From Arthrobacter sp. HY1533 (GTDB lineage: Bacteria; Actinomycetota; Actinomycetes; Actinomycetales; Micrococcaceae), in the NCBI RefSeq assembly GCF_027568515.1, contig NZ_JANKZF010000001.1, forward strand, positions 310,001 through 374,000: 64,000 nucleotides of DNA, given 5' to 3'. Below, piece after piece: positions 22,190 through 50,824 of this stretch (position 1 is the stretch's first letter; the number at the start of each line of letters is the position of its first letter). The notes under the pieces were generated by a model. The model did no database searches. It was not told the origin of the DNA and saw only the letters and a list, made by a program, of their open reading frames with translations. Made by a program: the position numbers and the translations under genes.

Positions 22190-22325
22190 GACGCGGCACA
22201 GCCCAACCCGCAGAGGAACAGCCGGGTTTCGACAAGCTCGACCAACGCGGCCGCAACAGCAGAATGACCCCCGGTTTCCCGGAGGTCATTCTGCTGGCAA
22301 ATGTGCCCGCGGTGGGACTCCAACC
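22190..22325. repeat. Partial tRNA-Leu 3'-end repeat, copy A
   Basis: This stretch repeats the region downstream of the intact tRNA-Leu at 50.7 kb. It holds the tcgacaagctcgaccaacg motif, a terminator hairpin (22261-22291), and a 22-base remnant of the tRNA T-arm and acceptor 3' strand (22304-22325, minus sense, 20 of 22 identical). It has the same orientation as copies B and C. It may mark the outer end of DNA inserted at the tRNA. Confidence 0.75.
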
Positions 22326-22447
22326 AACTTTCATCTCGTGCAACTAAGGGCAGTCCCGACATCCTGCGGCGGTACGCATGCCGAGACGGCCAGCTGAGAG
22401 CCCGCCATGCGCGGGAATCTTGCTGAGATCGATCAGCGAGTCTCTGG

Positions 22448-24999: not shown

Positions 25000-26079
25000 T
25001 TAGTTGGCGTTTGCCAGGACGGGGTAGTCAGTGTATCCGGATTCGCCGCCGCCATAGATGGTTGCGGGATCCAACTCATTCATGGGCGCCTCGGCGCGCA
25101 GCCGCTCGACGACGTCGGGGTTGGCAAGTGCCAAACGGCCCACAGGGGCAATGTCGGCAAAGCCGGCGTCAATGTCAGCGGCGAGCTGCTCCCGGGTTCG
25201 GCCGTAACGGACCACCAGCACCGCCGTAGGCCATGCCTCACGGAAAGACTGCAGCAACTCATCGTCGCCAACGTGGTGCAGATGCAGATAGGCAAGGTTC
25301 AGGCCGGCAAGCTCGCCCACCAGGTGGCGGTATTGTGCCCGCACATCGGCAACGTCACCTTCCTCGAGGCCACCCAGCGGCATGGACGGAGACAGGCGGA
25401 TCCCCACACGGTCCGCACCGATCTCCTCCGCCACGGCACGGGCCACCTCGATGACGAACCGGGATCGGTTCTCGACCGATCCACCGTAAGCGTCACTGCG
25501 GCGGTTCGAGTTTGGGGAAAGGAACTGGTGCAGCAGGTACCCGTTGGCACCATGGATTTCGACGCCGTCGGCACCGGCCGCGATGGCCGATGCGGCGGCA
25601 TGGCGGAATTCGGCAATCACGGCCGCAATGTCCTGGACGCTCAGTTCGCGTGGAACCGGCACCTGCTGCCGCCCGCTCGCGGTTGCAATGTCCACCCCGG
25701 CTGAGATGGCCGACGGCGCCACAGGCTGGCGGCCATGCGGGGTGTTGTCCGGGTGCGAAATCCTGCCGGCGTGCATGAGCTGGATGAACAGTGCCCCGCC
25801 TCCGGCATGGACGGCATCGGAGACTTTCCGCCAGCCTGCAATGTGCTCCGGGGTGTAGATGCCGGGGGTGTTCGCGTAGCCCTGACCGTCGGCCGAGGGC
25901 TGGGCACCTTCGGTGATCAACAGGCCTAGGGTGGCCCGCTGGCCGCAGTACCGTGCGACCAGCTCGCCCGGGGTGCCGTCGGCATTGGCCCGGTTGCGGG
26001 TCATTGGCGCCATGGCGAGTCGGTGTGAAAGTTCCACACGGCCCAGTGAGAAGGGCTGCCAAAGGGAAGTCAAAGTCAT
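25000..26079 (-). CDS. Alkene reductase, old yellow enzyme family
   Basis: This 359-residue FMN-dependent ene-reductase is closer to classical OYE/NemA than the enzyme at 23055. Segments are HRLAMAPMTRNRAN, FIQLMHAGRISHP, DGVEIHGANGYLLHQFLSP and DAYGGSVENRSRF. The substrate-binding His-Gly-Ala-Asn is present. The family reduces quinones, enones and nitro compounds with NADPH. The ATG at 26079 has AAGGAA upstream. A TetR gene is divergent, and an inverted repeat in the shared promoter region suggests control by it. Confidence 0.9.
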   Translation of the reverse strand: MTLTSLWQPFSLGRVELSHRLAMAPMTRNRANADGTPGELVARYCGQRATLGLLITEGAQPSADGQGYANTPGIYTPEHIAGWRKVSDAVHAGGGALFIQLMHAGRISHPDNTPHGRQPVAPSAISAGVDIATASGRQQVPVPRELSVQDIAAVIAEFRHAAASAIAAGADGVEIHGANGYLLHQFLSPNSNRRSDAYGGSVENRSRFVIEVARAVAEEIGADRVGIRLSPSMPLGGLEEGDVADVRAQYRHLVGELAGLNLAYLHLHHVGDDELLQSFREAWPTAVLVVRYGRTREQLAADIDAGFADIAPVGRLALANPDVVERLRAEAPMNELDPATIYGGGESGYTDYPVLANAN

Positions 26080-26203
26080 GGGGAAAATGTTCCTTTTTAG
26101 TAGGTGGGGCACGGCGCCGGTGCTGCGGGCCACGAAGCGAGGAGCTTGTGGACGTCATGGGAGAATGAGTTGACCCACTTACGAGCCCACACAGTGCCGA
26201 CTA

Positions 26204-26219
26204 CACTCATAACTGAGTG
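26204..26219. promoter_or_regulatory. Candidate TetR operator
   Basis: CACTCATAACTGAGTG is a perfect 6-bp inverted repeat with a 4-bp spacer, 30 bp upstream of the TetR start and 125 bp upstream of the divergent alkene reductase gene. Confidence 0.5.
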
Positions 26220-26249
26220 CAATCAGATTTTATTCCCGAAGGGATCGCC

Positions 26250-26852
26250 ATGCCAGAAATTTCCCCGCCGCCGGGACGGCGTGAGCGGAACAAGCAAGCC
26301 AAGCTGGACCGGATCGTGGCAGCTGCCGGCGAGCTCTTTTCCGAATACGGCGTGGATGATGTCACCACGCAGCAGATTGCCGACAAGGCCGACATCGGAG
26401 CCGGCACGCTGTTCCTCTACGCCAAATCCAAGGGTGAGCTCTTGTTGATGGTGCAAAACTCCAGCTACGCCGATTCACTCACACGGGGCATGGCCGCTGC
26501 CCAGGAGATCCCTGAAACTCTCGGGGCCGTCATGGCGATCGTTAGTGAAGTGGTTTATTGCAACCGAAAACAAGTTGACAATGGCCGGACATACCTGCGC
26601 GAGATGGTTTTCGGAGACCCGGAGGAGCCTCACCGCCGCCAGGCGCTGGACCTGGCCCAACAGACCGAGGACGCCATCGCCGTCGTTCTTCAGCGCGATC
26701 AGCACATTGACCCGGGCCATGCCACCACAATCCCCCGCATTGTCTCCGCCATCATGCTGCTGAGCATGGCCAGCGCCGCCAACCTTGCCGCTGGCACCGA
26801 GGAAATCATCTACTCCATTCGCGGCCAGATCGCGGCAATCCTGCCCCGCTGA
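26250..26852 (+). CDS. TetR-family transcriptional regulator
   Basis: The 200-residue protein has a typical N-terminal TetR helix-turn-helix. DRIVAAAGELFSEYGVDDVT is followed by QQIADKADIGAGTLFLYAKS. An all-helical ligand domain with no recognisable signature follows. It is divergent from the alkene reductase/SDR pair and is most likely their repressor, inactivated by electrophilic or quinone-like compounds. The ATG at 26250 is chosen because the earlier ATG at 26217 overlaps the candidate operator. Confidence 0.85.
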   Translation: MPEISPPPGRRERNKQAKLDRIVAAAGELFSEYGVDDVTTQQIADKADIGAGTLFLYAKSKGELLLMVQNSSYADSLTRGMAAAQEIPETLGAVMAIVSEVVYCNRKQVDNGRTYLREMVFGDPEEPHRRQALDLAQQTEDAIAVVLQRDQHIDPGHATTIPRIVSAIMLLSMASAANLAAGTEEIIYSIRGQIAAILPR

Positions 26853-26854
26853 CC

Positions 26855-27331
26855 TCAGATTGAGCTGTCCACCGCCATACGCAGAAACTCCACATCCTGC
26901 TGGCCCACAATGGCGCCATGGGCATCCACCAAGGCTGCATGCACACGCTCATGCCCGTCACGGGTCACCGGGAGCACGCTGGGACCCTTCCCCTGCGGGA
27001 GATGCACCTCCCCCCACTGCTGCATGGCCACCAGCACCACTTTTAGTTCATGGCCAGCCGCTGTCAGCTCGTAGGCATCGCGCGTGCGCTGCCCCGGCTC
27101 CTGGTAAGGCACCTTTTCCAGCACGCCGTGCTCCACAAGCGCGCCGAGCCGTGCGCTGAGAATGTCAGTGGCAATGCCCAAGGAGTCCCTGAACTGGGCG
27201 AAGGTGCGCCGCCCAAGCAGCGATTCGCGCAACAGGAGAAAACTCCAGGAGTCGCTGAGCACCCCCAGGGACCGGGTGATGGCGCACCGGTTGTCCAGGG
27301 CATCGACGAGCATTCGTGACTTGGGGGGCAT
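26855..27331 (-). CDS. HxlR-family transcriptional regulator
   Basis: This 158-residue winged-helix protein matches the HxlR/MarR-like group. The segments CAITRSLGVLSDSWSFLLLR, FAQFRDSLGIATDILSARL and VEHGVLEKVPYQEPG are family hallmarks. HxlR proteins often sense quinones, aldehydes or oxidants through cysteine; here the only Cys is near residue 16, at the position found in many members. The gene is divergent from the thioesterase/MFS unit and probably controls it. Confidence 0.86.
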   Translation of the reverse strand: MPPKSRMLVDALDNRCAITRSLGVLSDSWSFLLLRESLLGRRTFAQFRDSLGIATDILSARLGALVEHGVLEKVPYQEPGQRTRDAYELTAAGHELKVVLVAMQQWGEVHLPQGKGPSVLPVTRDGHERVHAALVDAHGAIVGQQDVEFLRMAVDSSI

Positions 27332-27516
27332 GATCCAATCCTATCCAGACGCTGTGGAGGCAACCCGGCGCCGGCAAAGGCTCCTCCCCCGGCTGGCGGC
27401 ACGTCACACACTACCTGAGTTTCTTTATCCAAGCTAGCATGGGTTCGGCAAGCCCGCCCGGCAATGTTCTGCCCTCTCGGCTGGGCGCCGTGGTCCTGTA
27501 CCAAGCAAGCAAAGGA

Positions 27517-28044
27517 ATGTCCGTGACTGAACCGTCTGAAGTGCCCGTGAACCGTTCGCGCACCATTCACTACCAAAGCCCCGACCCGGCCCAGGCAAAG
27601 CTCTTTGAACGGACGGGTCTCGAACAGTTGCGAGCCCTCATGGACGGCACAATTGCCCCTCCTCCGATCAGCAGCCACGTTGGGCTGGAGTTCGTTTCCG
27701 TGGCAGACGGCGAGGTAGTCATGACCGCACAGCCCGATGAATCGCACTACAACCCGATCGGGTCGATTCATGGAGGCTTCTTTGCCACAGTCCTCGATTC
27801 GGCCTGCGGGTGTGCCGTGCACAGCACGCTGCCGGCAGGAGTAGGCTACACGAGCCTGGAACTCAAGGTTTCCTTCCTGCGGCCCATCACGGCCGAAACG
27901 GGAATTGTCACTGCCCGCGGCTGGGTCACCCGCCGCGGCAGAAACGCCTCCTTCGCCGAGGCAGACATCCGTGACAATGAGGGCCGCGTGCTGGCCACGG
28001 CATCGAGCACCTGCCTGATCATCAATCCGGGCCGCACCCGATGA
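27517..28044 (+). CDS. PaaI-family thioesterase (hotdog fold)
   Basis: The 175-residue protein carries the hotdog signature HYNPIGSIHGGFFATVLDSA. The Gly-rich H-G-G-x-x-A turn and the acidic residue of aryl-CoA thioesterases are present. The later strands SLELKVSFLRPI and NASFAEADIRD complete the fold. It probably hydrolyses an acyl- or aryl-CoA. The ATG at 27517 follows AAAGGA; a longer frame to 27439 is possible. Its stop overlaps the ATG of the MFS gene (ATGA). Confidence 0.82.
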   Translation: MSVTEPSEVPVNRSRTIHYQSPDPAQAKLFERTGLEQLRALMDGTIAPPPISSHVGLEFVSVADGEVVMTAQPDESHYNPIGSIHGGFFATVLDSACGCAVHSTLPAGVGYTSLELKVSFLRPITAETGIVTARGWVTRRGRNASFAEADIRDNEGRVLATASSTCLIINPGRTR

Positions 28045-29303
28045 GCCGCCCTGGCACAGCCCTCCCGCAGAGGACGTCGGCGAGCCGCAGGCCAGGACGG
28101 CTGGGCAGGCGCGGGGCATTCTGGTCAGCAGCGTCCGTGCTTGCGCTGGTGCTGTGGTCCTCCGGGGCACCGAGCACGCTATATCCAAGCTACGCCGAGA
28201 AATGGGACCTCCCCGCAGTGGTGCTCACCAGCGTCTTCGCCGCGTACCCGCTGGCGCTTGTGGTGGTGTTGCCGCTCTTCGGCAACCTCTCCGACATCCA
28301 TGGCCGGCGGTTGGTCATGATCGGCGGAGTCTTCCTCATAGCCCTCACCACCCTCTTGTTCGCCTTTGCGCCGAACGTCGGCTTCCTGTTTGCCGGCCGG
28401 GCACTGCAGGGCGCTGGCTCCGGGCTGGCCATGGGCGCGGCAACAGTGTCATTGATCGAAAACAGCCCGAGAATCAACCCCCGCTTTGCCAGCACGACGG
28501 CGACAGTTGCCACAGCGGCTGGACTCACATTGGCCCTGTTCGTCAGCGGGCTGCTGGCACAATATGCACCGTGGCCCTTGTCTCTGAGCTACCTGGTCTT
28601 GCTCCTGCTGGCCGTCGCAGTGATGGCAGCCCTGTTCATGACCCCGGGCGACCGGCCAGAATCGAGGCAGCGTTGGCGGCCCCAGTCCCCCAAAGTTCCA
28701 CGCGGGATCCGGCTAAATTTCCTCATCGCGACAATGTCGGTTGCTCTGGCGTATTCCATGGGAGCCATCTTCCTGTCCCTCGGGGCGCACATGATCGCCC
28801 AGTTCGCACACACTGACAACAGGGCGGTGGTCGGCTCGCTGCTGGCGAGCTCTTCCGTGGCGATCTGCCTCACTGCGTTGTTTCTGGTGAGGGTCCCTGT
28901 TCGGTACCAAGTGTGGAGCGGGGCCCTTCTGACCATAGCCAGTCTCGCCTTGATGGTTGGTGCGAGCGTATTGGGGTCAAGCGCGCTGTTTCTCAGTTGG
29001 TGCCTGGTTGGCGGCTGCGCCTACTCGCTGGCATTCACCGGCGGGCTGGGCCTCATCAACAGCGTTGCCCCCGCACGCCATCGGGGTGCAACGCTCTCGT
29101 TGCTGTACCTCATCGCCTACGTTTTCCAGGCAGTTACCGCAGTCGGCGCCGGGGCTCTTGCCACCTCCGCAACGCTGGGAACCGCCGTGATCGCGGCAGC
29201 AGCGGCCCTGGCATTCCTGTGCATCCTGGTGCTGGTCCTGCTCAAGATTTCGCCGCTTGGTGAGCAAATGGGAAGCGGTGCAAAGCGGGCACCCACAGAG
29301 TAG
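28041..29303 (+). CDS. MFS transporter, probable drug/metabolite exporter
   Basis: The 420-residue protein has 12 predicted membrane helices. FGNLSDIHGRRLVMIGG is the conserved loop between helices 2 and 3. RALQGAGSGLAMGAATVSL covers helix 4 to 5 and resembles the efflux-type motif C region. It is translationally coupled to the thioesterase gene. Together with the HxlR and TetR regulators and the ene-reductases, it suggests a stress or detoxification function. The substrate is unknown. Confidence 0.83.
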   Translation: MSRPGTALPQRTSASRRPGRLGRRGAFWSAASVLALVLWSSGAPSTLYPSYAEKWDLPAVVLTSVFAAYPLALVVVLPLFGNLSDIHGRRLVMIGGVFLIALTTLLFAFAPNVGFLFAGRALQGAGSGLAMGAATVSLIENSPRINPRFASTTATVATAAGLTLALFVSGLLAQYAPWPLSLSYLVLLLLAVAVMAALFMTPGDRPESRQRWRPQSPKVPRGIRLNFLIATMSVALAYSMGAIFLSLGAHMIAQFAHTDNRAVVGSLLASSSVAICLTALFLVRVPVRYQVWSGALLTIASLALMVGASVLGSSALFLSWCLVGGCAYSLAFTGGLGLINSVAPARHRGATLSLLYLIAYVFQAVTAVGAGALATSATLGTAVIAAAAALAFLCILVLVLLKISPLGEQMGSGAKRAPTE

Positions 29304-29331
29304 ACCCAGGCCAGGCAACGCCGCCAGGGTG

Positions 29332-29815
29332 TCAGGCGGCGTTGAATTTCGCGGCAATCGGTCCGAACTTCTCCCAGTATTGGAAGATGCCGCCGTGGCC
29401 GGAGTTGGGGAAGGTGATCACCGCGCTGCCCTTGATGCGCTGGTGCACGTCCCACGGGGCGGAGTGTCCAAAACGCTGGATCGCCTTGAGCTGGCGGCTG
29501 AATGCCTTGTTGCTGAAGGGCATGTCACGGTCGGAGGTGCGCTCCTTGAGGCGTTCCACAAATGCGCCTTCCCGGATGGCTTGCCCGCGCTGCCGCGGTT
29601 GAAGAAGCGGAATTCCTTCGGGTCGGAACGGGTAATGACGGAGCGGAAGGTGTCGTAGTAGGTCACTCCCACCGCCTTGTTCATATCCTTCCCTCCACGG
29701 AGTCCAGTCCCGGTGAGTACCAGCTTGCGGACCATCTCCGGGTGTTTAACCACGAGGTCATGGGCGATCCTGCCGGCCATGGAACAGGAGAAAATGTCGA
29801 TCGTCGCGAATCCCA
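29332..29815 (-). pseudogene. Degraded alpha/beta-hydrolase gene
   Basis: Two frames together encode pieces of one alpha/beta hydrolase. The region near 29815-29560 reads ...FSCSMAGRIAHDLVVKHPEMVRKLVL with the nucleophile-elbow area (the Ser-containing S-M-A-G). The second frame, 29559-29332, ends with ITFPNSGHGGIFQYWEKFGP carrying the catalytic His. A frameshift near 29570 and the loss of the N-terminal third and of the acid loop make the gene non-functional. Confidence 0.7.
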
Positions 29816-30253
29816 GCGCGGCGAACTACTTCATCGTCGTCGACGACGCCCTCGACGCAGCAACAACACTCGAACCCGAAGCAGGCCAATAGCAAAGTCG
29901 CCTCCGTTGACAACTAATCAGACGCCAACATGCCCACCTTCATCAAAAAAGGCGGCGGCATCAATTCCGGGACGGTTCAGTCATGTACCGGGCAATCGGC
30001 GTTTCCTGTGGCGAGGGAGCGGGAGGGGCGCATGCTTTCAAACTGGCAAATAGCAGTAAAGTGCGCGGCCAAGGCTCGGAGTGGAGCTGTCGGCTGCGAT
30101 TGTCGAGGGCTACCGGATCCTACAGAGGATCGCGGGCGATTACGGCAATGAGTGAGTCCCTCACAGTACCCCTAAAAATGGGGACTCCCTCATCGCCACA
30201 GCGTGGCGTCTACTTGATTTGTAGACGAGACAATGCCACGGAGGAAACTCATC
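29816..30253. other. Intergenic stretch with no supported gene
   Basis: No gene can be supported here. A plus-strand frame ending at 29892 encodes a short acidic tail (NYFIVVDDALDAATTLEPEA) that could be the remainder of a lost gene. The rest contains no recognisable coding sequence. A palindrome at 30165-30186 lies in the promoter region of the next operon. Confidence 0.5.
30165..30186. promoter_or_regulatory. Inverted repeat in front of the envelope-protein operon
   Basis: The arms AGTACCCC and GGGGACT are separated by TAAAAAT, 68-89 bp upstream of the cyclophilin-like gene. It could be an operator or a short terminator for upstream reading. Confidence 0.35.
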
Positions 30254-30793
30254 TTGACAGCACGCCGACAAACGCACGCCGCACGGGCAATCACTGGACT
30301 GGCATCAAAGGCTGGGGCGGGACCAGCTGCTCGCAGCGGCACACCGGCGGACGGCAATCCTCCGTTCGAGACCACAACGGAAGATTCGGGTTCGACCGAC
30401 AAAACCAAATCGACCGCACCAAAGCAAAGCATTGCCGGAATGATTGTCAGCTTTACCGCTGGCAATGTTGTTGTCGAGGCGGTCATCGTGGAAGACAACC
30501 CCACGACACGCTCGTTCCTGTCAATGCTTCCGATGACCCTCACGTTCTCGGACTTCGGCGGAAAGGAAAAGGTCGCATCCCCGCCAGGCGATTTAGACTA
30601 CACCGGCGCCGAAGGGCTTCGACCTGAAGTAGGCGACCTGTTCTCCTACATGCCTTGGGGAAACATCGGCTTCTTCTACAACGCCGAGGGCCACACCTTC
30701 TCGAGCTCGTTGACGAAGATCGGCGAAACCGCTGACATCGATCAGATCGGACTGCTAGACGGCAAAGCAGTCACCATCGCCGCCCGCGACTAA
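30254..30793 (+). CDS. Cyclophilin-like fold protein
   Basis: The 179-residue protein has a polar Thr/Ser-rich N-terminal region (about 1-60) and then a small beta-barrel domain. Segments include MLPMTLTFSDFGGKEKVASP, GDLDYTG, the PEVGDLFSYMPWGNIGFFYN segment and FSSSLTKIGE. These are diagnostic of the bacterial cyclophilin-like family, which is not a proven peptidyl-prolyl isomerase. The start is uncertain: a TTG at 30254 behind GGAGG (30239-30243), or an ATG at 30233. The Ala/Gly-rich segment near residues 10-30 looks like a lost signal sequence. It is the first gene of a four-gene unit. Confidence 0.75.
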   Translation: MTARRQTHAARAITGLASKAGAGPAARSGTPADGNPPFETTTEDSGSTDKTKSTAPKQSIAGMIVSFTAGNVVVEAVIVEDNPTTRSFLSMLPMTLTFSDFGGKEKVASPPGDLDYTGAEGLRPEVGDLFSYMPWGNIGFFYNAEGHTFSSSLTKIGETADIDQIGLLDGKAVTIAARD

Positions 30794-30811
30794 CTCCAGG
30801 AACCACATCTG

Positions 30812-31819
30812 ATGCCAACTGTGAAAGTCACCCGACGCACCTTCTTCTTGTCCGCCACCGTCCTCGGAACAGGACTCCTGGCTGCCTGCACCAGCAGCCC
30901 CGACCCGATCGGGAACACGTCCACACCGACGACTCCCTCAGCCACCGAGACGAACGGGAGCGGCCTGTTGCCTCAGGGCGATCTCTACGGTGTGGGAATC
31001 TACAACACACAGCAGGTCGCGGACGAATTGCGTTACATCGAACAGAACATCCAGCCACTCACAGGCAGCGACACGAAGCGGGTACTGATCACCGGGTCAA
31101 CCGGCGGTATCGGGCAGCTCGCTGCCGCGTACTTCCTGCGCCGGGGACACCGCGTCGTCGTGCACGCCCGCAACGAACAGCGCGCCGCCGACGTACGCCG
31201 TGATCTGCCGGGACTGGAAGACGTCGTCATCGGCGACCTCCTCGACCTGAACCAAACCCGGGCGCTGGCCGAGCACATAAACGGGCTCGGCGGGTTCGAC
31301 GTCATCATCTACAACGCTGGCGAGTACGGGCTCACCGGCCCAGAGATCCTGAACGCGAACTCGCTGTCACCGTATCTGTTGACCGCTCTGGTCTCCACCC
31401 CGCGCGAGCAGCTGATGTACCTCTCATCCGATCTGCATCTGGGCGGAAGCTTGATGCTTGACGAGGTTCGGTCGGGCGATGGCATCACCTACGGCGACAG
31501 CAAGCTGCACCTGGCCATGATCGCGGCCGCAGCAGCCCGCCGCTGGCCCGACATACAGGTCAATGCGATTGCGCCTGGCTGGATCCCAACACTCATGGGC
31601 TTCCACAACGGCAACGCAACCACGCCCGACAGCCTGCGCGACGGCTACATGACCCAGGTCTGGCTCGCCGAAAGCGCCGAACCAGGCAGCGACATCACCG
31701 GAGAGTTCCTCTTCCACCGGCAGGTCGAGACGCGCGTGAACGACTTCGTGCACGACACCGACGCGCAGGAGCAGCTGGTCGCCGCTTACGCCGAACGCAC
31801 CGGCGTTGCATTCAGCTGA
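30812..31819 (+). CDS. SDR-family oxidoreductase with Tat-type lipoprotein signal
   Basis: The 335-residue protein begins with a twin-arginine signal (VTRRTFFLSATVLGTGLLAA) ending in a lipobox with Cys26, so the mature protein should be a lipoprotein exported already folded. A low-complexity Thr/Ser linker follows. Next comes a complete SDR domain: RVLITGSTGGIGQLAA for the cofactor, VVVHARNEQRA (Arg, NADP preference), YNAG, the LSSDLHL Ser and YGDSK. Exported SDR enzymes are rare because the dinucleotide is cytoplasmic; Tat export would carry it bound. It follows the cyclophilin-like gene by 18 bp. Confidence 0.8.
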   Translation: MPTVKVTRRTFFLSATVLGTGLLAACTSSPDPIGNTSTPTTPSATETNGSGLLPQGDLYGVGIYNTQQVADELRYIEQNIQPLTGSDTKRVLITGSTGGIGQLAAAYFLRRGHRVVVHARNEQRAADVRRDLPGLEDVVIGDLLDLNQTRALAEHINGLGGFDVIIYNAGEYGLTGPEILNANSLSPYLLTALVSTPREQLMYLSSDLHLGGSLMLDEVRSGDGITYGDSKLHLAMIAAAAARRWPDIQVNAIAPGWIPTLMGFHNGNATTPDSLRDGYMTQVWLAESAEPGSDITGEFLFHRQVETRVNDFVHDTDAQEQLVAAYAERTGVAFS

Positions 31820-31866
31820 CACACTTCCACCATCCCCACGCCTGGCGTGGAAAGGACTGAAACCCC

Positions 31867-32709
31867 ATGAAACTACACCGGACCAGCTCCTCCCCTGGCC
31901 AGCTCCCACCGACAGCCACAGATGAACCCCGGACGATGAGCGCCACGCCGGACTCTCGGCGGAGCCCTGTACGCCGATTCCTGGCCGCCGCTCTCGTTTC
32001 TGCGTCTGCGGCGGCGCTGGCCATGGTTTCTGCTTCGCCAGCTGCCGCGCACCACGGCTGGGACGGCTTCGAGACCGACAACCTCGTCTACATCGCCGGC
32101 ACGGTCAACTCGGACGGCAGCTGGGGTGAGCCACATTCGTACTTCGACGTGGATCTCGACAGCGAGCTGCCCACCCACACGCCCGAGTTGGAGATTCCCG
32201 AAGAACTGCAGGACCCCGAGGACAGCGTCCGAGTCAACGCCGCACTCGCATACCCCGGCCCCAACAACGAGCTGGAGGTCATCATCGCTCCTCCCGCATG
32301 GTCAGGCCGGTGGGGACTTGACCGGGCACTCAACATTGGCGAGAGCTTCCAGGCCGTCGGCTACATCAACCGAGAAGATGCCGGATTGTTCCGCCCCGTC
32401 GTGTTCTGGTACGGGGACGACAACGTGGCGGTGAACCAGGTACTCGGCAACACCCTGCCGGTACGCGCTCCACTTCCGGGTTCGGACCCCTCAGACGAGG
32501 ATGAAAGCGCCTCGGTGTCCCCCGCCCCAGACCCCTTGGAGACCAAGACCCCGGCCACGGACGCAACCACCGCCCCCGCCACCGCGGCGGAGGACGGAGG
32601 GACCTGGCTCGTCTGGACGGTATTCGGAATAGTGATAGTTGCAGCCGTCGGCGGCGGAGTCTTCTATGTCCGCCATCGCGCCAGGCAGGGTGGAGTGGAG
32701 GATGCCTGA
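31867..32709 (+). CDS. DUF6152-like exported protein with C-terminal membrane anchor
   Basis: The 280-residue protein has a long N-terminal region with a signal peptide (about 31-61, RRSPVRRFLAAALVSAS...). A predicted signal peptidase site AAA^HHGW leaves two histidines at the mature N-terminus. The domain up to about residue 190 (VYIAGTVNSDGSWGEPHSYF, SGRWGLDRALNIGESFQAVG) resembles the DUF6152 family. A Pro/Thr/Ala linker and one membrane helix (about 247-270) end in a basic tail. AAAGGA precedes the ATG at 31867; an ATG at 31936 is possible. A copper site at the His-His end is inferred, not shown. Confidence 0.72.
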   Translation: MKLHRTSSSPGQLPPTATDEPRTMSATPDSRRSPVRRFLAAALVSASAAALAMVSASPAAAHHGWDGFETDNLVYIAGTVNSDGSWGEPHSYFDVDLDSELPTHTPELEIPEELQDPEDSVRVNAALAYPGPNNELEVIIAPPAWSGRWGLDRALNIGESFQAVGYINREDAGLFRPVVFWYGDDNVAVNQVLGNTLPVRAPLPGSDPSDEDESASVSPAPDPLETKTPATDATTAPATAAEDGGTWLVWTVFGIVIVAAVGGGVFYVRHRARQGGVEDA

Positions 32710-33196
32710 CTGGCTCGATACGCAGCTGCGCTGGCTGCAGGCAACGCCTCTCGGCGACGCGGTGCGTAGCGCCCCATTCATGTATCCCACATTGGAGGCA
32801 CTCCACATTCTCGGGATCGCTCTCCTCGTCGGCCCAGCGTTCGCGTTCGACCTCCGGCTGCTGGGTGGCGGTCGACGCCTCATGTCGGTGACCACGGCCG
32901 CCCGCCACCTGCTGCCTCTCTCCCACGTCGGCCTGGTTGTCGCCCTTGCCACCGGGGTCGCGCTGATGAGTGCGCAGCCGATCGTGGTCGCAGGTTCCTC
33001 AGCCGCTCCATGGAAGCTCGGGCTACTACTCCTGGCGGGATTAAACATCCTGGTGTTCCACCGTGGCGTGTACCGCCGCGTCGGTCAGTGGGCAAAGGCC
33101 TCCGCGACTCCGATTGCCGCCCGCGTGGCGGCGGGTGTGTCGCTGACGGCGTGGACGGGCGTTATCTTCGCCGGGCGGTTCCTCGCCTACATCTGA
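32702..33196 (+). CDS. DUF6644-like membrane protein
   Basis: The 164-residue protein has four hydrophobic helices (about 35-55, 70-95, 100-120, 138-160). Charged loops contain FDLRLLGGGRRLM and FHRGVYRRVGQW. LEALHILGIALLVGPAFAFD near the start resembles DUF6644 proteins. The conserved His in the first helix could bind heme or metal. The ATG overlaps the previous gene by 8 bp, so the two are translationally coupled. The function is unknown. Confidence 0.75.
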   Translation: MPDWLDTQLRWLQATPLGDAVRSAPFMYPTLEALHILGIALLVGPAFAFDLRLLGGGRRLMSVTTAARHLLPLSHVGLVVALATGVALMSAQPIVVAGSSAAPWKLGLLLLAGLNILVFHRGVYRRVGQWAKASATPIAARVAAGVSLTAWTGVIFAGRFLAYI

Positions 33197-33909
33197 ACCG
33201 TGCAGTCACGCGGAGCGGAGCTGACCGGTAACAGCAAACGCCGCACAACGAATTCGTAGGTTGAAACCTGCTGGCGACGCCATCCACAGTTTTGATGCGT
33301 CAAGAACCACGAGTCATCGTTGGCGCAGCAGGAGCAATGAACCGTCTCCTGAAACTTTCAGCCGATTTGTGGGCGACGTTGTCAGGAACGGGCGGCAATC
33401 AGACTCAAAGGATGTTTGAACCTAGTCCTCGGGACGTCGTGGCCGACAGCGAAATGGCCGGCACACGCAAGTTACACACCATGCCTTCATGCAACCGGCT
33501 GAACCTCGGATCGCACTCACTTGCGCCACCGCGTTCTACAGAAGCTCACGTCGCTAAGGCTCCGGCGCCCCATGAACTGTGTGAAGGAGAAAATAGCTCC
33601 GAGCAGTCAACAAGGAGGCGCCACCGAACCAACAGCCAAATCAGCGTCAACGAACTAGGACGCGGCATGGATAGACCTAACAGGCATTGGCCGGGTCTCG
33701 ACCAGCTCGACCAACGTGGCCGCAAAAGAAGAATGACCCCCTGTTTCCAGGAGGTCAATCTTCGAAAAAAGTGCCCGAGGTTGAACTCGAACCAGAATTT
33801 CCCCCTTGCACACAAAGGCAAGCTGCGCACCACAGCGGAAGTAGGGCTCTGTACGAAGCATTGCGGACCGGTCCGGAAGGAAAAGTATTGTCACCGTCAA
33901 CAGGCAAAA
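33197..33909. other. Intergenic region containing repeat copy B
   Basis: No gene can be supported in the first 350 bases. Repeat copy B occupies 33555-33793, and the remainder leads into the HTH gene. A long plus-strand open frame crosses the whole stretch, but its translation has no coding character before about 33910. Confidence 0.6.
33555..33793. repeat. Partial tRNA-Leu 3'-end repeat, copy B
   Basis: This stretch of about 240 bp is clearly homologous to 50525-50765. It includes the ggagaaaata-ctccg block, the gccgggtct / ctcgaccaacg block, the agaatgaccccctgtttccaggag hairpin in part, and a 22-base tRNA 3'-end remnant at 33772-33793 (20 of 22 identical to the intact tRNA). The orientation is the same as in copies A and C. 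Confidence 0.8.
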
Positions 33910-34413
33910 TTGACGCCAATATCCGCGGCCGGAGCATTGATCCGCGCCCAGCGAATGGAACAAGGATGGACGCAACTGGCGTTGGCGGATGTGGCCGGCG
34001 TTTCACGGAAATTTCTCATTGACCTCGAATCGGGCTACGACAATGCCAAAATTTGCAAGACCATAGCAGTCCTAGCTGCCTTAGAACTCTTCCTCTCCAC
34101 CACCACGCCTATCCCCCGCGGCAGCCAGCGCATCCCGGAAAGCAGGGCGGTAACCCTCCCGCGAAACCCTCGACTCACAGAGCCACAGTGGTCTGCCGCT
34201 TTGGCGGGAATCACCAACTACACCGCCAACCGCCTCGACCAACCCGCACCAGCCTTGACCACACACATCCAACCTCTCAAAGAGGCTTGGATGCCAGCCG
34301 AGTCCTACCGGACCGGCCGCGAACCAATGAAACAACTCACCCGGTCTGAAACACCTCACGAGCTCGCCGCCATGAATATCCTCATCCGCGAACGCAGCCT
34401 GACCACAGCCTGA
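33910..34413 (+). CDS. XRE-family HTH transcriptional regulator
   Basis: The N-terminal half is a Cro/CI-type helix-turn-helix (LIRAQRMEQGWTQLALADVA, SRKFLIDLESGYDNAKI), similar to the HipB antitoxin-like group. The C-terminal half of about 100 residues (with TEPQWSAALAGITNYTANRL) is not recognised. The start is uncertain: a TTG at 33910 gives 167 residues, because the frame upstream runs into repeat copy B. No HipA-like kinase gene follows, so it is an orphan or the former antitoxin of a lost toxin. A hairpin overlaps its stop. Confidence 0.65.
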   Translation: MTPISAAGALIRAQRMEQGWTQLALADVAGVSRKFLIDLESGYDNAKICKTIAVLAALELFLSTTTPIPRGSQRIPESRAVTLPRNPRLTEPQWSAALAGITNYTANRLDQPAPALTTHIQPLKEAWMPAESYRTGREPMKQLTRSETPHELAAMNILIRERSLTTA

Positions 34414-34438
34414 GCGCCGGCGAACTCGCCGGCGCTCA
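34411..34438 (+). terminator. Terminator hairpin after the HTH gene
   Basis: A perfect 13-bp GC-rich stem (34411-34423 with 34426-34438) includes the TGA stop codon and is followed by a T-rich stretch (ggcttttttcc) about 15 bp downstream. Confidence 0.65.
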
Positions 34439-34885
34439 AATACTGGCTTTTTTCCATGAACTCGCCAACGGGCTCGCGGCCCGTGACATTCATGGGGCAT
34501 TGAAGATTTACCGTCCACACTCGAACGATGACCACGAGTCGGTGGCCAATGCATTCCCTTCAATGGACGACCCAATCTCAATGGTCATACTTCACCGGCC
34601 CCTTGGACAACAGCATCCACCAATGTCGATGCTGCTATGCCCCCAATAAACTGGGAACTAGGCTAGGGCAGCTTGCCCTGCGATTCCGAGTGCACCAGCT
34701 TCGACGCAAGCCAACCTGCCATGTCCCGTTTTTCACCAGTTCAGCGCACGAGTCTCGAGAAGGGCGACGCCAGACCACACCATTCGTTGCGAGAAAAACT
34801 GATCTCCAGCAGGGTGCTTGTCTGGTGCAGGACTCACTAGCTTGCCCAGGGAATCAGTGATCGAACGTCAACCTCAAGAATCCGT
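34439..34885. other. Intergenic region without a supported gene
   Basis: No RNA gene, repeat or convincing gene is seen. One plus-strand frame ending at 34649 encodes a protein-like stretch (LAFFHELANGLAARDIHGAL), but it has no start codon with a ribosome binding site. It is treated as a possible remnant only. Confidence 0.4.
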
Positions 34886-35140
34886 CTATGCGTACTGGGT
34901 GCTGGATACGTAACCGCCAGCGGGACCGTCGGGCTTGGCATCGCTGGTCACATAGCTGCCGGGGCGGTCGGGGCGGGGCGCGGCGGTGGTCACGTATTCG
35001 CCTGCCGTACGGGGGCGGGGCGCGGTGGTGGTGATGTACGAGCCCCCGAAGACCTTGTGCCCTTCCGCCGAGCCTTGGCCGTTCATTTCGTTGCCAATGA
35101 AGGTGGCGACGTGTTCCATTTGGTTCAAATAGCTGTTCAT
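34886..35140 (-). CDS. Small tandem-repeat protein with GxYVTT motifs
   Basis: I do not recognise this 84-residue protein. After an N-terminal helix-like part (MNSYLNQMEHVATFIGNEMN) it has four imperfect repeats of about 13-14 residues: GSYITTTAPRPRTA, GEYVTTAAPRPDRP, GSYVTSDAKPDGPA, GGYVSSTQYA. The unit is G-x-Y-V-T/S-T/S-x-A-x-P. There is no signal peptide or membrane helix. A strong AGGAG supports the ATG at 35140. It follows the acyl-CoA dehydrogenase gene by 132 bp on the same strand. A modified peptide or a scaffold are possibilities only. Confidence 0.7.
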   Translation of the reverse strand: MNSYLNQMEHVATFIGNEMNGQGSAEGHKVFGGSYITTTAPRPRTAGEYVTTAAPRPDRPGSYVTSDAKPDGPAGGYVSSTQYA

Positions 35141-35271
35141 TATTGCTCCTGTTTTGGGTTTGGGCGCGTGACATCGCGCCACTTGGGTGTCTGGTGCAGC
35201 GGCGTGCGGGGCTGAGAAGTGGTTGTTGGTTTAGTGCGAAGCACGCCCGTGACGGCGTCTTATTTTTGCTT

Positions 35272-36432
35272 CTACCGGAAGGCCGGGATGCCTGTGAGCT
35301 TTCGACCGAGAATGAGGGTGTGCACCTCATCGGTGCCCTCATAAGTGCGCACTGATTCGAGGTTGTTCGCATGGCGCATGGGTGAGTAGTCCAATGTGAT
35401 GCCGTTGCCGCCAAGCATGGCGCGGGCTTCCCTGCAAATTTCGATCGCCTCACGGCAATTGTTCAATTTGCCCACTGATATCTGGTCCGGCTGCAGTGTT
35501 CCGGCGTCCTTCTTGCGCCCCAGGTGCAGTGCGAGCAAGAATCCCTTGTTGATTTCCAGGGCCATGTTCACCAGCTTCTGCTGGCTGAGCTGGTAGCCAG
35601 CCAAAGGCTTTCCGAACTGCATTCGTCCGGCAGAATAGTCGAGGGCGGCCTCAAATGAGTCCCGTGCCGCTCCCATGGCCCCCCACATGATCCCGTACCT
35701 GGCTTCGTTCAGGCATGAAAAGGGCCCACCAAGTCCCAGTGTTTCGGGCAGCATTGCTGAATGGGGCAACCGGACGTTGGTGAGTTCCACATCGCACTGG
35801 ATGGATGCGCGCATAGAGAGTTTCGGGGAAATGGGCGTTGCGGTAAATCCCGGCGTCGACGTGGGCACCACAAAACCACGCACTCCCTTGTCACTCTGGG
35901 CCCAAATGATGGCAACCTGAGCCACGGAGGCCAGCCCTATCCATCGTTTCGTGCCGTTGAGCACCCAGTCACTGCCGTCCCGATGGGCAAAAGTGGCCAT
36001 GTTTCCCGGGTCCGAACCGGCGCTCGGTTCGGTCAATCCAAAACACCCGATGGCCTCCCCCTTGGCCATGGCCGGCAGCCACTCCTGCTTCTGCTCCTCC
36101 GAACCGTGCTTGTGGATGGCACTCATGGCAAGCGACCCTTGCACCGAGACGAACGTCCGCAGGCCGGAGTCCCCCGCTTCCAGCTCCGCACCCGCCAGGC
36201 CATACTCCACTGCGGTTCGGCCGGCACAACCATAACCGTCGATATGCATTCCCAGCAGGCCCAGCTTGGCCAGTTCGGGGACTATCTCCAGCGGGAAAAC
36301 GGCCTTTTCAAACCAATCGGCGATGTTGGGCTTGATCTCAGTGTCAACGAACGACCGCACGGAATCACGCAGTGTGCGCTCTTCCAGGGTGAGAAGTGAA
36401 TCGAAATCAATAAGGTCACTGGGATTGGTCAA
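35272..36432 (-). CDS. Acyl-CoA dehydrogenase, glutaryl-CoA dehydrogenase-like
   Basis: This 386-residue FAD enzyme dehydrogenates an acyl-CoA. CFGLTEPSAGSDPGNM, KRWIGLASVAQVAIIW and MQFGKPLAGYQLSQQKL are the flavin- and substrate-binding segments. SVRTYEGTDEVHTLILGRKL contains the catalytic Glu in the position used by glutaryl-CoA dehydrogenase. An R-Y-G-I-M-W-G-A-M-G-A-A stretch also matches that group. The start is a TTG at 36432 with AAAGGA upstream. It lies at the end of the ABC transporter operon. A paralogue is encoded at 44977-46179. It may be decarboxylating or not. Confidence 0.87.
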   Translation of the reverse strand: MTNPSDLIDFDSLLTLEERTLRDSVRSFVDTEIKPNIADWFEKAVFPLEIVPELAKLGLLGMHIDGYGCAGRTAVEYGLAGAELEAGDSGLRTFVSVQGSLAMSAIHKHGSEEQKQEWLPAMAKGEAIGCFGLTEPSAGSDPGNMATFAHRDGSDWVLNGTKRWIGLASVAQVAIIWAQSDKGVRGFVVPTSTPGFTATPISPKLSMRASIQCDVELTNVRLPHSAMLPETLGLGGPFSCLNEARYGIMWGAMGAARDSFEAALDYSAGRMQFGKPLAGYQLSQQKLVNMALEINKGFLLALHLGRKKDAGTLQPDQISVGKLNNCREAIEICREARAMLGGNGITLDYSPMRHANNLESVRTYEGTDEVHTLILGRKLTGIPAFR

Positions 36433-36570
36433 TTTGGGTCCTTTCGAGGTGATGGTTGGGTTGCCAGGGGAATTGGGACGGACGACGCCGGGACCTCCCG
36501 CCGTCGTGAGCTTGCGTTGGGCGAAACTCCCCTGCTGCGCGACGGCCGGCTTAGGAGAATTCCAGCCGCG

Positions 36571-37557
36571 CTACCACTTCCGTTTTACTTCTTCTGCCCA
36601 GCCAAAGATGGACTTCACGGGGATCTTCTCCCCTGATTCCGAGGTAATTTCGCCATCAAAGTACCCAAAGCATTGGTGCTCTTCGCTCAGGACAATGACT
36701 TTGTTGAAATTCGAATACCGGTCGTAAATGGGCGTGAATGTCAGATCCACCCGGGTGCCGGTGATGCGCCACGGCTTCATCCAGTCGCTGACGTCATATG
36801 TCCAGGAAAGCTCTTCACTGATCTTTTGAATTTCGCCATCAATGCGGAGCGAGTTTTCCGTGGACGGGGTCCCTTCCGTCCACTTCCCGCCAAACTGCAA
36901 GCCGATCTCGCGTCCGTTGGTCCGCCCGCTGCCCGAGGCCCAATTCCAGACGATCGAGTACGGCCACCGGCCCCTCCCATGATCCAAGGTGGCAAAGGAT
37001 TCACCGGCTTCAACCGGATACTCAACACCATCGGCAATGGTCATGCCGGACACGGGCAGGCAGTTGTCCTTGCGTGTGTACTGGAAAACCTTGTCGCTCC
37101 AAGGGACCAAAACCCCCATGGACTGGTGATTCGGCGGAACCACCACATCCAGGTCCACCTTCAACCGCGCTGAATCCATGTGCAGCCTCACGCCCCCGTC
37201 GTAGGGGATCATGCTGATCTGGATTTCCTTGCCCTTGCCGATGATGGGTTCGTTTGCCAGGCCGGTAAGCGCCTTGGTGCCGTTCTTGAACCACTGAATT
37301 TCCGCCAAGGGAATTGCCTTGAGCGTCTTCTTGTCCAAGAAGAATCCGGCGTTGGTGACCTTGTAGTCGGTGTCGGAGACATTGAGGGCCACCACATGGC
37401 TGGGTGTTGAAATGCACCAGTATTCAAAACGCTTGTTGCGACCCCATCCGCGCAAATTTGCCCGATGTTGGGGCGTTCTGCTCCAACCAACTGCTTCCGG
37501 GTTCAAGCGCCCGTTGGGCAGGCACATCTGAACCTGGCTGGTAATTTCACGTTCCAT
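36571..37557 (-). CDS. DUF2804 family protein
   Basis: The 328-residue protein matches the DUF2804 family in length and in several segments: CLPNGRLNPEAVGWSR, NKRFEYWCISTPSHVVALNV, YTRKDNCLPVSGMTIADG, DHGRGRWPYSIVWNWASGSG and GLQFGGKWTEGTPSTEN. The fold is probably a double lipocalin-like beta barrel, and no catalytic role is known. It has no signal peptide. The ATG at 37557 follows AGGAAGA. It lies 68 bp after the second permease gene, inside the ABC operon, so it may handle the imported substrate. Confidence 0.78.
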   Translation of the reverse strand: MEREITSQVQMCLPNGRLNPEAVGWSRTPQHRANLRGWGRNKRFEYWCISTPSHVVALNVSDTDYKVTNAGFFLDKKTLKAIPLAEIQWFKNGTKALTGLANEPIIGKGKEIQISMIPYDGGVRLHMDSARLKVDLDVVVPPNHQSMGVLVPWSDKVFQYTRKDNCLPVSGMTIADGVEYPVEAGESFATLDHGRGRWPYSIVWNWASGSGRTNGREIGLQFGGKWTEGTPSTENSLRIDGEIQKISEELSWTYDVSDWMKPWRITGTRVDLTFTPIYDRYSNFNKVIVLSEEHQCFGYFDGEITSESGEKIPVKSIFGWAEEVKRKW

Positions 37558-37625
37558 GAATACGGGTCTTCCTGTTGCGGCCATGTGGCCGGAGAATCAA
37601 ACGGTAAATCGTCCTCGGTGGGAGG

Positions 37626-38483
37626 TCATCCCTTGGTGGCGCCCTCGGCCAGGCCGTTGATGAGATGTTTTTGAACCATCAGGGCAAAAATAACCACGGG
37701 GATTACTGTGAGCGTGCCAACGGCCGTCAAGGCTCCCCACATGGCACCATTCTCCGTGTCGGCCGCCATGCCGGCGATTGCAACGGGAATGGTTGCTGCG
37801 TGCCTATTGGTCAGAATGAGGGCAAAGAGCAGTTCCTCCCAGGCGAGAATGATGCTGAAAATCAAGGTAGAGACAATGCCAGGCATTGAGATGGGCACAA
37901 TGATCCTAAAGAATGTGCCCAGCCTGGAGGCGCCGTCCAACATGGCGGATTCCTCAAGTTCCTTGGGCAGGGCTGCAAAGAATGAACGCATCAGCCACAT
38001 CACGTAGGGGATCAGGAAGGTGCAGTACGCCAGAATCAGCGTGATATGCATGTCGGTGATGCCCAAGGTGCGTGCCACGAGGAACATTGGCACAGCCAGT
38101 GCGATCGGCGGCACACCGCGGGAGGCAAGAATCAGGACGCCGATGGTTGCCCCGCCCTTGATGTTCAGGCGGGACAGGGCGTAGCCGGACATGGTTCCCA
38201 GCACCAGCGAGAGCACGCCTGCGCCGGCCGCAACTATGACCGTATTGACCATTCTCCGGCCGATGTCGGCCTGCTGCATGTAGCTGGTGTAGTTGTCCAT
38301 GGTGAAGGTGGAGAAGATTCTCGGCGGCGTCGTGAAAATGTCGGTGGGCAACTTGAACGACGTCGAAATCATCCAGAGGACGGGCAGGAGGAAGCCAAGA
38401 CAGATGGCTACACCGGCAACGATGCGAAACATGCGCCCTGGGTTTACTTTTCCTTTGCGAAGCTTCAGTGTCGTGGTGCTCAA
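37626..38483 (-). CDS. ABC transporter permease, CUT1 type (MalG-like)
   Basis: The 285-residue inner-membrane permease has six helices. The EAA loop LPKELEESAMLDGASRLGTF contacts the ATPase. The segment near the N-terminus (PVLWMISTSFKLPTDIFTTP) is typical of MalG-type subunits. Translation starts at a TTG that overlaps the stop of the MalF-like gene by 4 bp. The partner ATPase gene is absent from this window. Confidence 0.9.
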   Translation of the reverse strand: MSTTTLKLRKGKVNPGRMFRIVAGVAICLGFLLPVLWMISTSFKLPTDIFTTPPRIFSTFTMDNYTSYMQQADIGRRMVNTVIVAAGAGVLSLVLGTMSGYALSRLNIKGGATIGVLILASRGVPPIALAVPMFLVARTLGITDMHITLILAYCTFLIPYVMWLMRSFFAALPKELEESAMLDGASRLGTFFRIIVPISMPGIVSTLIFSIILAWEELLFALILTNRHAATIPVAIAGMAADTENGAMWGALTAVGTLTVIPVVIFALMVQKHLINGLAEGATKG

Positions 38484-39460
38484 AACCGGTCCTCAAGTTT
38501 CTTGGTTGTGCGGAGGAAGATCATCGTCATGATCATGGTGAGAACAAGAACGATGACCGCCATTGCTGATGATTCGGCGAATTTGAGCGAACGGAATGCT
38601 TCCTCGTAGATGTAGAGGTTGACGACGTTTGTCGATTGGCCCGGCCCGCCCCTGGTCGCGGCCAGGGCAATGTCAAACATTTTCACGGCGCCGAGCCAGC
38701 GAACCACGAACACCGCGCCGATGGCGCTGGCCAGCATGGGAAGGCTGACGTGGATCAGTGTGTGCCACCAGCGTGCACCGTCCACGGCCGCGGCTTCGAA
38801 AACGTCGCGGGGCAGCGCCAGCATGGCGGCCGATGCAATCAGGACGATGAACGGGGTCCAGCGCCAGGTGTCGATCAAGACAATGCTGATCATGGCAAGG
38901 TTCGGGTCACCCAGCCAGTTCAGGGGGCCGATGCCTGCAAATCCCAACACGTAGTTGACGATTCCCCAGAGCGGGTCGAGGAGCATTTTCCACACGCCGC
39001 CCGCGACAACGGGAGCCACCACCATGGGGATCAGGAACAGTGCGCGGACCAGTCCGCGCCACTTCCACTCCACGTTCAGCAGGTAGGCGATGCCAAAGCC
39101 AAGCACCATCTGCAGGGGAAGGGCAAGCACCAGGTAGATGCCGGTGACCTTCAGGGAGTTGAGGAATCCCGGATCCGTGATGGCCTCTATGTAGTTGTCC
39201 CACCCGACCCACCCCTTGGGCGCAAAAGTAGCCAGATTCAGATCGGAGAAGCTGATTTGAATCGTGTAGAAGATGGGGTAGGCCAGGAGGGCCAAAAGGA
39301 GAAGGGTGGTGGGCCCGAGAAAGGTCCACTTACTGAGCAGATCATTGACTTTCAATCTGGCACGCGAAGGCTGGGAATAACCGGCTTTCACAGCTCGCCG
39401 TGATGGTGGCGGGGTTTCGCTGGCTTCCTGCGTTTTGGGGAGGAGACTTGGGGAGCGCAT
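38480..39460 (-). CDS. ABC transporter permease, CUT1 type (MalF-like)
   Basis: The 326-residue permease has a cytoplasmic N-terminus of about 45 residues and six helices. The EAA loop is ALPRDVFEAAAVDGARWWHT. LLLLALLAYPIFYTIQISFS is the first helix with the family sequence. The ATG shares one base with the stop of the binding-protein gene (TAATG), so the two are coupled. Confidence 0.9.
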   Translation of the reverse strand: MRSPSLLPKTQEASETPPPSRRAVKAGYSQPSRARLKVNDLLSKWTFLGPTTLLLLALLAYPIFYTIQISFSDLNLATFAPKGWVGWDNYIEAITDPGFLNSLKVTGIYLVLALPLQMVLGFGIAYLLNVEWKWRGLVRALFLIPMVVAPVVAGGVWKMLLDPLWGIVNYVLGFAGIGPLNWLGDPNLAMISIVLIDTWRWTPFIVLIASAAMLALPRDVFEAAAVDGARWWHTLIHVSLPMLASAIGAVFVVRWLGAVKMFDIALAATRGGPGQSTNVVNLYIYEEAFRSLKFAESSAMAVIVLVLTMIMTMIFLRTTKKLEDRF

Positions 39461-50524: not shown

Positions 50525-50765
50525 TTAAGCCCCGGCGCACCAAGAACTTTGCGGAGGAGAAAATATCTCCGGGCAGTCGGCAAGGAGCCGCCAACAAATC
50601 AGCAGCTAATTATTCGCCGGAGTCCCCGGACGCTGCATGGGACGACCCAACAGTGGAACAGCCGGGTCTGGGAATGCTCGACCAACGGGGCCGGAAAAGA
50701 AGAATGACCCCCTGTTTCCAGGAGATCATTCTTAGAACAAAAGTGCCCGAGGTGGGACTCGAACC
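50525..50765. repeat. tRNA-Leu 3' end and downstream flank, copy C
   Basis: This is the version that includes the intact tRNA 3' end (50744-50765), its terminator hairpin (50701-50732) and about 180 bp downstream of the gene. The same block recurs at 33555-33793 and, more shortened, at 22190-22325. Confidence 0.8.
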
Positions 50766-50824
50766 CACACACCTTTCGATACTGCATTTTGAGTGCAGCG
50801 CGTCTACCATTCCGCCACTCGGGC
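50744..50824 (-). tRNA. tRNA-Leu, anticodon CAA
   Basis: The 81-base gene folds as a class II tRNA. The acceptor GCCCGAG pairs with CTCGGGC and the discriminator is A. The anticodon stem CTGCA/TGCAG encloses the loop CTCAAAA, giving anticodon CAA for UUG codons. A variable arm of about 14 bases precedes the T-arm with GGTTCGAGTCC. CCA is not encoded. A terminator hairpin lies just downstream (50701-50732). Confidence 0.95.

Follow-up and report, generated by a model that had tools for sequence, protein, structure and literature searches.

CopC and CopD are encoded by adjacent or fused genes, and HemJ (UPF0093, PF03653), a b-type haem protoporphyrinogen oxidase, is a small helical membrane protein. 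In YcnJ of Bacillus subtilis, the Cu(II)-binding histidine of the CopC domain and a histidine of the CopD domain are both required under copper limitation (PMC13344008). A 2025 paper describes DUF4198, DUF6702, Ang-1 and Ang-2 as classes of N-terminal-histidine metalloproteins, with DUF4198 a nickel protein of this type and Ang-1 and Ang-2 linked to membrane permease domains (PMC12537917). Herein, we analysed a stretch of 64,000 nucleotides from Arthrobacter sp. HY1533 (contig NZ_JANKZF010000001.1, positions 310,001 to 374,000; the window), in which a four-gene cassette ends with genes for a DUF6152-like exported protein and a DUF6644-like membrane protein. These two genes form a steady pair across two phyla, and the exported protein carries a candidate N-terminal-histidine metal site. 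A full-text search of the literature collection used here returned no mention of DUF6152 and none of DUF6644.

The initial annotation of this DNA had proposed four head-to-tail genes behind an inverted repeat. The open reading frame (ORF) coordinates bear out this layout from 30233 to 33196, with intergenic gaps of 18 and 47 bp and an 8-bp overlap of the last two genes. The inverted repeat was also recovered, beginning 21 bp to the left of the start first given, and is a possible operator. The cassette and the residues on which the argument turns are as follows.

30144 to 30197, 5' of the first gene: inverted repeat, arms 30144-30160 and 30181-30197, 17 nt each, 88% complementary, 20-nt spacer.
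30233 to 30793, plus strand: cyclophilin-like protein (PF18050, E 5.5e-24), 186 amino acids, Pfam match beginning at residue 75.
30812 to 31819, plus strand: predicted twin-arginine (Tat)-type lipoprotein short-chain dehydrogenase (SDR; PF00106, E 1.6e-14), 335 amino acids.
31867 to 32709 (alternative start 31936), plus strand: DUF6152-like exported protein, 280 amino acids, with a signal peptide and a C-terminal hydrophobic anchor.
32050 to 32055, plus strand: codons of mature His1-His2, directly after an Ala-Ala-Ala signal site, cleavage predicted by eye.
32131 to 32136, plus strand: codons of Pro28-His29, a second pair of residues invariant in the DUF6152 family.
32702 to 33196, plus strand: DUF6644-like membrane protein, 164 amino acids.
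32804 to 32806, plus strand: codon of His35, kept in 82 of 82 DUF6644 relatives; HemJ and CopD have their transmembrane His at the aligned position.
33014 to 33016, plus strand: codon of Lys105, kept in 82 of 82 DUF6644 relatives and aligned with the Lys of the WLHAKL-type stretch of HemJ.

The family names proposed earlier stood for the cyclophilin-like protein and the SDR, but the DUF6152-like and DUF6644-like proteins scored 22.0 bits to PF19649 and 21.7 bits to PF20349, respectively, under the Pfam gathering cut-off of 27. A relative of the window-type DUF6152 protein scored 33.1 bits to PF19649, and 26 of the 27 members of the DUF6644 alignment A4 matched PF20349 (E up to 1, best 8.8e-10). 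The window proteins share motifs, gene order and remote sequence similarity with the two Pfam families. They differ in their scores, in a long additional segment midway through the DUF6152 domain (seen in a 34-member alignment) and in the hydrophobic C-terminal tail of the actinobacterial DUF6152-like proteins; the proteobacterial ones end at or within a few residues of the core. Three of the four products had been placed at or outside the membrane. The Tat lipoprotein SDR and the anchored exported protein agree with this, and a hydropathy scan of the DUF6644-like protein fits several membrane helices, although the four first claimed were not cleanly resolved.

The association of the last two genes was consistent across distant genomes. 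When the species-representative collection was scanned, 65 pattern matches resulted, 28 of them encoding a relative, in Actinomycetota and in alpha-, beta- and gamma-Proteobacteria. At 26 of these 28 loci, the gene immediately 3' of the DUF6152-like one, in the same orientation, encodes a DUF6644 homologue. Both exceptions have a broken DUF6152 gene: the contig of L036 ends about 600 bases further on, and L038 has about 3.4 kb downstream without a DUF6644 match. At L037, the DUF6152 copy is interrupted, yet DUF6644 is still the next gene. A plasmid scan returned 36 records, and all five that were read carry the pair. Broken DUF6152-like copies were seen in L036, L037, L038 and L056, as if the unit decays in some hosts.

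Pfam-type members of the families behaved similarly. Among 299 Pseudomonadota genomes, PF19649 was found in 31 and PF20349 in 22, and all 22 genomes with DUF6644 also have DUF6152 (hypergeometric 1.7e-26), a count that, like the other genome counts here, overstates independence, as the sampled genomes are related by descent. There were 32 DUF6644 matches, 16 of them at most 500 bp downstream of a DUF6152 gene and 27 at most 5 kb away. A more sensitive profile put DUF6644 directly downstream at 30 of 42 PF19649 loci; among the other 12, five have a DUF6644 match elsewhere in a short locus, eight are in genomes with a PF20349 match farther off, and L098 has neither. G329 contains 8 DUF6152 matches and G301 contains 7.

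Gene order around the pair was more variable. The full order cyclophilin-SDR-DUF6152-DUF6644 recurs in Arthrobacter L012 and in L013, an Acidipropionibacterium metagenome-assembled genome (Propionibacteriaceae), and the order SDR-DUF6152-DUF6644 in Arthrobacter L026 and on the Sinorhizobium plasmid L006. The SDR follows the pair in L011, and L003 matches the C-terminal part of the SDR only. Many pairs in Pseudomonadota have no neighbours common to other loci, which makes the pair the minimal unit. The steady unit is thus the DUF6152/DUF6644 pair and not the four genes, with the SDR and the cyclophilin-like protein as frequent but exchangeable partners.

Conservation within the DUF6152 family centres on four residues. 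His-His stands at predicted mature positions 1 and 2 in 78 of 80 distinct sequences, the remaining two being fragments without an N-terminus, and Ala precedes it at position -1 in 77 of these 78. Pro-His at 28-29 is found in 78 of 80. The window protein has both features (AAA|HHGW ... GEPH, the bar marking the signal site), a pattern defined in this analysis and distinct from Pfam's definition of DUF6152. Because the script sought HH near the match start and the profile was seeded with HH sequences, relatives without HH could be missed; many members came independently from Pfam's own profile. In a diverse 34-member alignment, with identity to the first row down to 16%, H1, H2, P28 and H29 are the only invariant residues; the members were drawn from 37 selected for the HH start, and Pro-His was no criterion. 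H1, H2 and H29 are a candidate N-terminal-histidine metal site, predicted to be exposed by signal cleavage. Weak OB/TOBE-type matches in one or two members hint at a possible OB-like fold. Sequence searches of solved structures gave a single match with alignment A3 (E 1.3), nothing with A4 and a single match with A5 (E 0.85), all at chance level.

The DUF6644 family likewise retains a few positions throughout, with G85 and G158 kept in 82 of 82 sequences alongside H35 and K105. A broad DUF6644 profile built from these 82 sequences matched HemJ (20 sequences) with a probability of 76.8 and E 2.1e-5, and all 12 CopD sequences together with a probability of 81.9 and E 1.1e-5. Controls of DUF6644 against MFS or reversed sequences reached at most 0.21% probability and HemJ's own controls at most 1.41, while the positive control, HemJ against CopD, gave 96.0. 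The best CopD alignment stops before K105, and none of the 27 DUF6644 members has a direct HemJ match in Pfam. The profile similarity and the aligned transmembrane His suggest that DUF6644 is a distant member of the HemJ/CopD superfamily.

The distribution of the pair is patchy. Among 149 Micrococcaceae genomes, five have a match. One of these is the window's own; two more extend over nearly the whole length (62% and 59% identity), and the last two are partial and weak. Across 25 loci, identity to the window's mature DUF6152-like protein was 65-82%. A joint tree of 32 rows placed the seven actinobacterial rows on one branch (support 100/99) set among proteobacteria, and two Pseudomonas/Stutzerimonas rows join this branch at 87/87. 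Transfer between phyla is the natural reading of such a distribution, and the pair appears to have moved horizontally between phyla, in either direction.

The two upstream genes of the cassette encode products of more familiar types. The SDR has RRTFF and LLAAC near its N-terminus as well as TGSTGGIG and YGDSK (YxxxK), read directly from the sequence, which we take to be a twin-arginine motif, a lipobox and SDR signatures. By eye, the twin-arginine signal is present in the window copy and in L006, L011, L012, L013 and L026, and the lipobox in the four actinobacterial copies among them. Many cyclophilin-like relatives start with Sec, Tat or lipoprotein signals, including the same-place copies of L012 and L013. 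Unlike these counterparts, the window copy showed no export signal (30233-30430), and at least five further listed rows (L008/04, L012/16, L014, L020 and L031/08) and L002 also lack one.

All four genes showed low rates of amino acid change. Nei-Gojobori estimates gave nonsynonymous distances (dN) of 0.13-0.29 and synonymous distances (dS) of 0.67-1.45, with dN/dS below about 0.35 in every tested pair; at most five loci entered each comparison (two in the case of the cyclophilin core), and for DUF6152 the mature core alone was used. These low ratios indicate that the four cassette genes have evolved under purifying selection. A promoter scan found no promoter-like site, and a terminator scan was at chance level (2 terminator-like sites against 2.2 in shuffles), so that the case for cotranscription comes from spacing alone.

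Neighbouring genes were clustered across 38 loci (L001-L038), a set that includes the window copy L001, the probable duplicate pair L003/L033, the weak hits L004 and L005 and short loci. The largest clusters were MFS (24), LysR (23), cyclophilin-like (22), alpha/beta hydrolase (21), SDR (19), cupin (15) and alcohol dehydrogenase (15). The labels are our own, from record annotation, Pfam scans of some members and reading, and many neighbours were left unannotated; gene calling by a length and codon-position heuristic missed some genes, including several DUF6152 and DUF6644 genes. Since MFS, LysR and SDR genes are common anywhere, PF18050 alone was tested for clustering, in the window's genome and those of L011-L036. 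In 21 of these 27 genomes, at most 8 kb separate the window-type DUF6152 gene from a PF18050 gene, against 0.12 expected under uniform placement, and a chance origin of the link was rejected under this model. The corresponding counts were 12 of 27 within 5 kb and 23 of 27 within 15 kb; the 27 genomes hold 40 PF18050 genes in all, and two hold none.

Metal-related neighbours were found at a single locus. At L143 (G459:C1:3014001-3034000), a DUF6152 gene and two DUF6644 genes have as neighbours efflux genes of the CusB-type/RND/OEP kind and genes for DUF6162, ZnuA, an ABC ATPase, an ABC-3 permease and DUF4198. Of the 299 Pseudomonadota genomes, 79 encode DUF4198, and a check of the matches by eye placed only the G459 copy near a DUF6152 gene. 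Other tandem-DUF6644 regions were scanned for a few proteins each. No clear metal-transport gene was found in those of L144 (6), L147 (1), L150 (2) and L152 (3); L150 has a hemerythrin-domain protein and L152 an HlyD/CusB-type protein. L148 has TonB-receptor, PepSY and AKR genes (4 proteins scanned), and carbonyl-acting enzymes are encoded next to the pair at further loci. In L144, L145 and L146 (G305, G301 and G329), tandem DUF6644 genes lie near a family whose L144 members are PQQ dehydrogenases. A second, unannotated family is also found there, its two L144 members being without a Pfam match.

Two partial copies of a tRNA gene enclose about 11.3 kb of DNA, at one end of which the cassette is located; this confirms the tRNA-derived boundaries proposed by the initial annotation. 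The features of this interval are as follows.

22190 to 22360: copy of the tRNA-Leu 3' end and adjacent sequence, left limit of the cassette interval.
33660 to 33830: second copy of the tRNA-Leu 3' end and adjacent sequence, right limit of the cassette interval.
50743 to 50824, minus strand: complete tRNA-Leu (CAA) gene, the single tRNA reported by ARAGORN.

Direct repeats derived from a tRNA thus flank both ends, as in an integrative element, and a scan of part of the ORFs in the interval turned up no integrase gene. Rfam reported no tRNA at E up to 0.5 in 27000-37000, though DNA alignment shows the partial copy there. A repeat search of 26000-40000 could not reveal the copy at 33660-33830 because the other copies lie outside that range. 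Between 22190 and 33830, the DNA also carries two old-yellow-enzyme (Oxidored_FMN) genes and SDR, TetR, HxlR, hotdog thioesterase and MFS genes, followed, on the way to the tRNA-Leu gene at 50743, by acyl-CoA, aldehyde dehydrogenase and ABC-transport genes. Three smaller observations concern the same region. On the minus strand, 29332-29780 reads like fragments of an alpha/beta hydrolase gene. The segment 33900-34300 looks like the remnant of a helix-turn-helix (HipB/XRE-like) gene, and the one reference tried held stop codons. Inside the right-hand repeat, 33722-33761 gave a weak match to the ctRNA_p42d antisense RNA (23 bits against a cut-off of 50), probably by chance.

Several described systems resemble the pair. 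In CopC/CopD and the fused YcnJ (PF04234/PF05425; PMC13344008), a helical membrane protein with a conserved transmembrane His is combined with an extracytoplasmic one that carries a metal-binding histidine on or close to its mature N-terminus; DUF6152, with a candidate histidine of this kind, would be the counterpart of the latter and DUF6644 that of the former. DUF6152 would share the N-terminal histidine of CopC after cleavage, which is itself predicted. Like DUF4198, DUF6702, Ang-1 and Ang-2, it has a conserved histidine predicted to be exposed by signal cleavage; it is not among the four classes listed by the abstract and headings of that paper and differs from them by its His-His start, the invariant Pro-His and a separately encoded partner (PMC12537917). 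In a histidine brace, the metal is held by the N-terminal amine and two histidines, and conservation makes H1, H2 and H29 the candidate ligands here. DUF6644 resembles HemJ as a small helical membrane protein whose H35 and K105 align with a His and a Lys of HemJ; unlike HemJ, it is tied to the gene of an exported partner.

The reading that we rank first, and to which we give an even chance, is that DUF6152/DUF6644 is a CopC/CopD-like extracytoplasmic metal-trafficking unit. The DUF6152-type protein would be exported, and signal cleavage would expose His1-His2, which may, with His29, hold a transition metal, Cu(II) being the likeliest, in a site resembling a histidine brace. The DUF6644-type protein would be its small helical membrane partner, with four helices by analogy, and would receive the metal from DUF6152, across or into the membrane, as CopD does from CopC. 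The actinobacterial cassette would add to the pair a Tat-exported SDR and a cyclophilin-like protein of a usually exported kind; there the pair might, more speculatively, supply or protect metal chemistry for extracytoplasmic carbonyl or redox enzymes. The computation itself shows motif conservation, pairing of the two genes, their co-occurrence and a distribution pointing to horizontal spread; the proposal would add a function to these.

Several results weigh against a CopC/CopD-like role. No CopC match in Pfam was found for 26 DUF6152 members at E up to 1 or for 34 at E up to 5, and the relationship of DUF6644 to CopD is remote and seen at the level of profiles. Taken by itself, the narrow alignment A4 misses both HemJ (probability 1.5) and CopD (0.3). 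The broad profile gave no match to the five short CopD sequences alone (probability 1.44) and a weak one to the seven long sequences alone (probability 31.5, E 5e-4). Among the labelled recurrent neighbours, which are redox, hydrolase, regulator and transporter genes, there is no copper gene, the unlabelled ones being unannotated. A metal neighbourhood as a general rule was rejected, L143 being a single case.

Some of the same evidence fits a redox enzyme with its own electron supply, in which DUF6152 would hold a catalytic histidine-brace copper or other metal, and DUF6644 a b-type haem linking it to the quinone pool. MsrP/MsrQ is a precedent for a redox enzyme with a haem membrane partner, and the title of Skotnicova et al. 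2018 names HemJ a b-type haem protein. The alignment of H35 and K105 with the conserved, haem-related His and Lys of HemJ would agree with this, as would the redox-rich neighbourhoods (SDR, alcohol dehydrogenase, XDH-type subunits and AKR, with PQQ dehydrogenases in another locus). However, the relationships to HemJ and CopD score about equally; we rank this explanation second and consider it possible but unlikely. Rather improbable, too, is a bolder proposal of a new class of extracytoplasmic redox metalloenzymes. DUF6152, as a small and possibly OB-like beta protein with a His-His copper site, would act on reactive carbonyls or quinones, with electrons passing via a HemJ-like haem-b DUF6644, and the SDR and cyclophilin-like protein would act on the same substrates.

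The remaining alternatives give the pair a lesser part. The four genes could form one pathway for an extracytoplasmic substrate, a reactive carbonyl or aromatic, with the two DUF proteins as metal-free accessory membrane factors. The recurrence of LysR, MFS, cyclophilin-like, alpha/beta hydrolase, SDR, cupin, alcohol dehydrogenase and XDH-type neighbours, the close linkage of PF18050 and the two old-yellow-enzyme genes in the same tRNA-Leu interval speak for a pathway, but it would leave unexplained both the sole invariance of H1, H2, P28 and H29 and the many pairs elsewhere that lack shared neighbours, and we regard it as quite improbable. That the cassette is an incidental arrangement, unrelated genes of a catabolic island at tRNA-Leu, would fit its position between tRNA-Leu-derived repeats and the differing neighbours among relatives. 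Adjacency of the pair in two phyla, an identical four-gene order in three actinobacteria including the window, and the low dN/dS of all four genes make this very improbable; it is largely refuted for the pair and PF18050, while the SDR link is drawn from fewer loci.

The module idea of the initial annotation was, overall, partly supported. Random neighbours outside close relatives, which it said would refute the idea, were not what the loci show, with the pair adjacent in actinobacteria and in alpha-, beta- and gamma-proteobacteria and PF18050 clustering far above chance. The co-occurrence of four families in one order was recovered in L012 and L013, but the steady unit proved to be the last pair. 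An extracytoplasmic redox or metal-handling role is given a concrete footing by the N-terminal His-His and the Pro-His, both conserved, and by the HemJ/CopD relationship.

Our results turn two domains of unknown function into a single unit that can be tested, residue by residue. Should the metal site prove real, DUF6152 would be a further family of N-terminal-histidine metalloproteins beside those of the 2025 paper (PMC12537917), one that has a membrane partner of its own and occurs with it in two phyla. The pair would then offer a way into PF18050 as well, the cyclophilin-like family found clustered with it.

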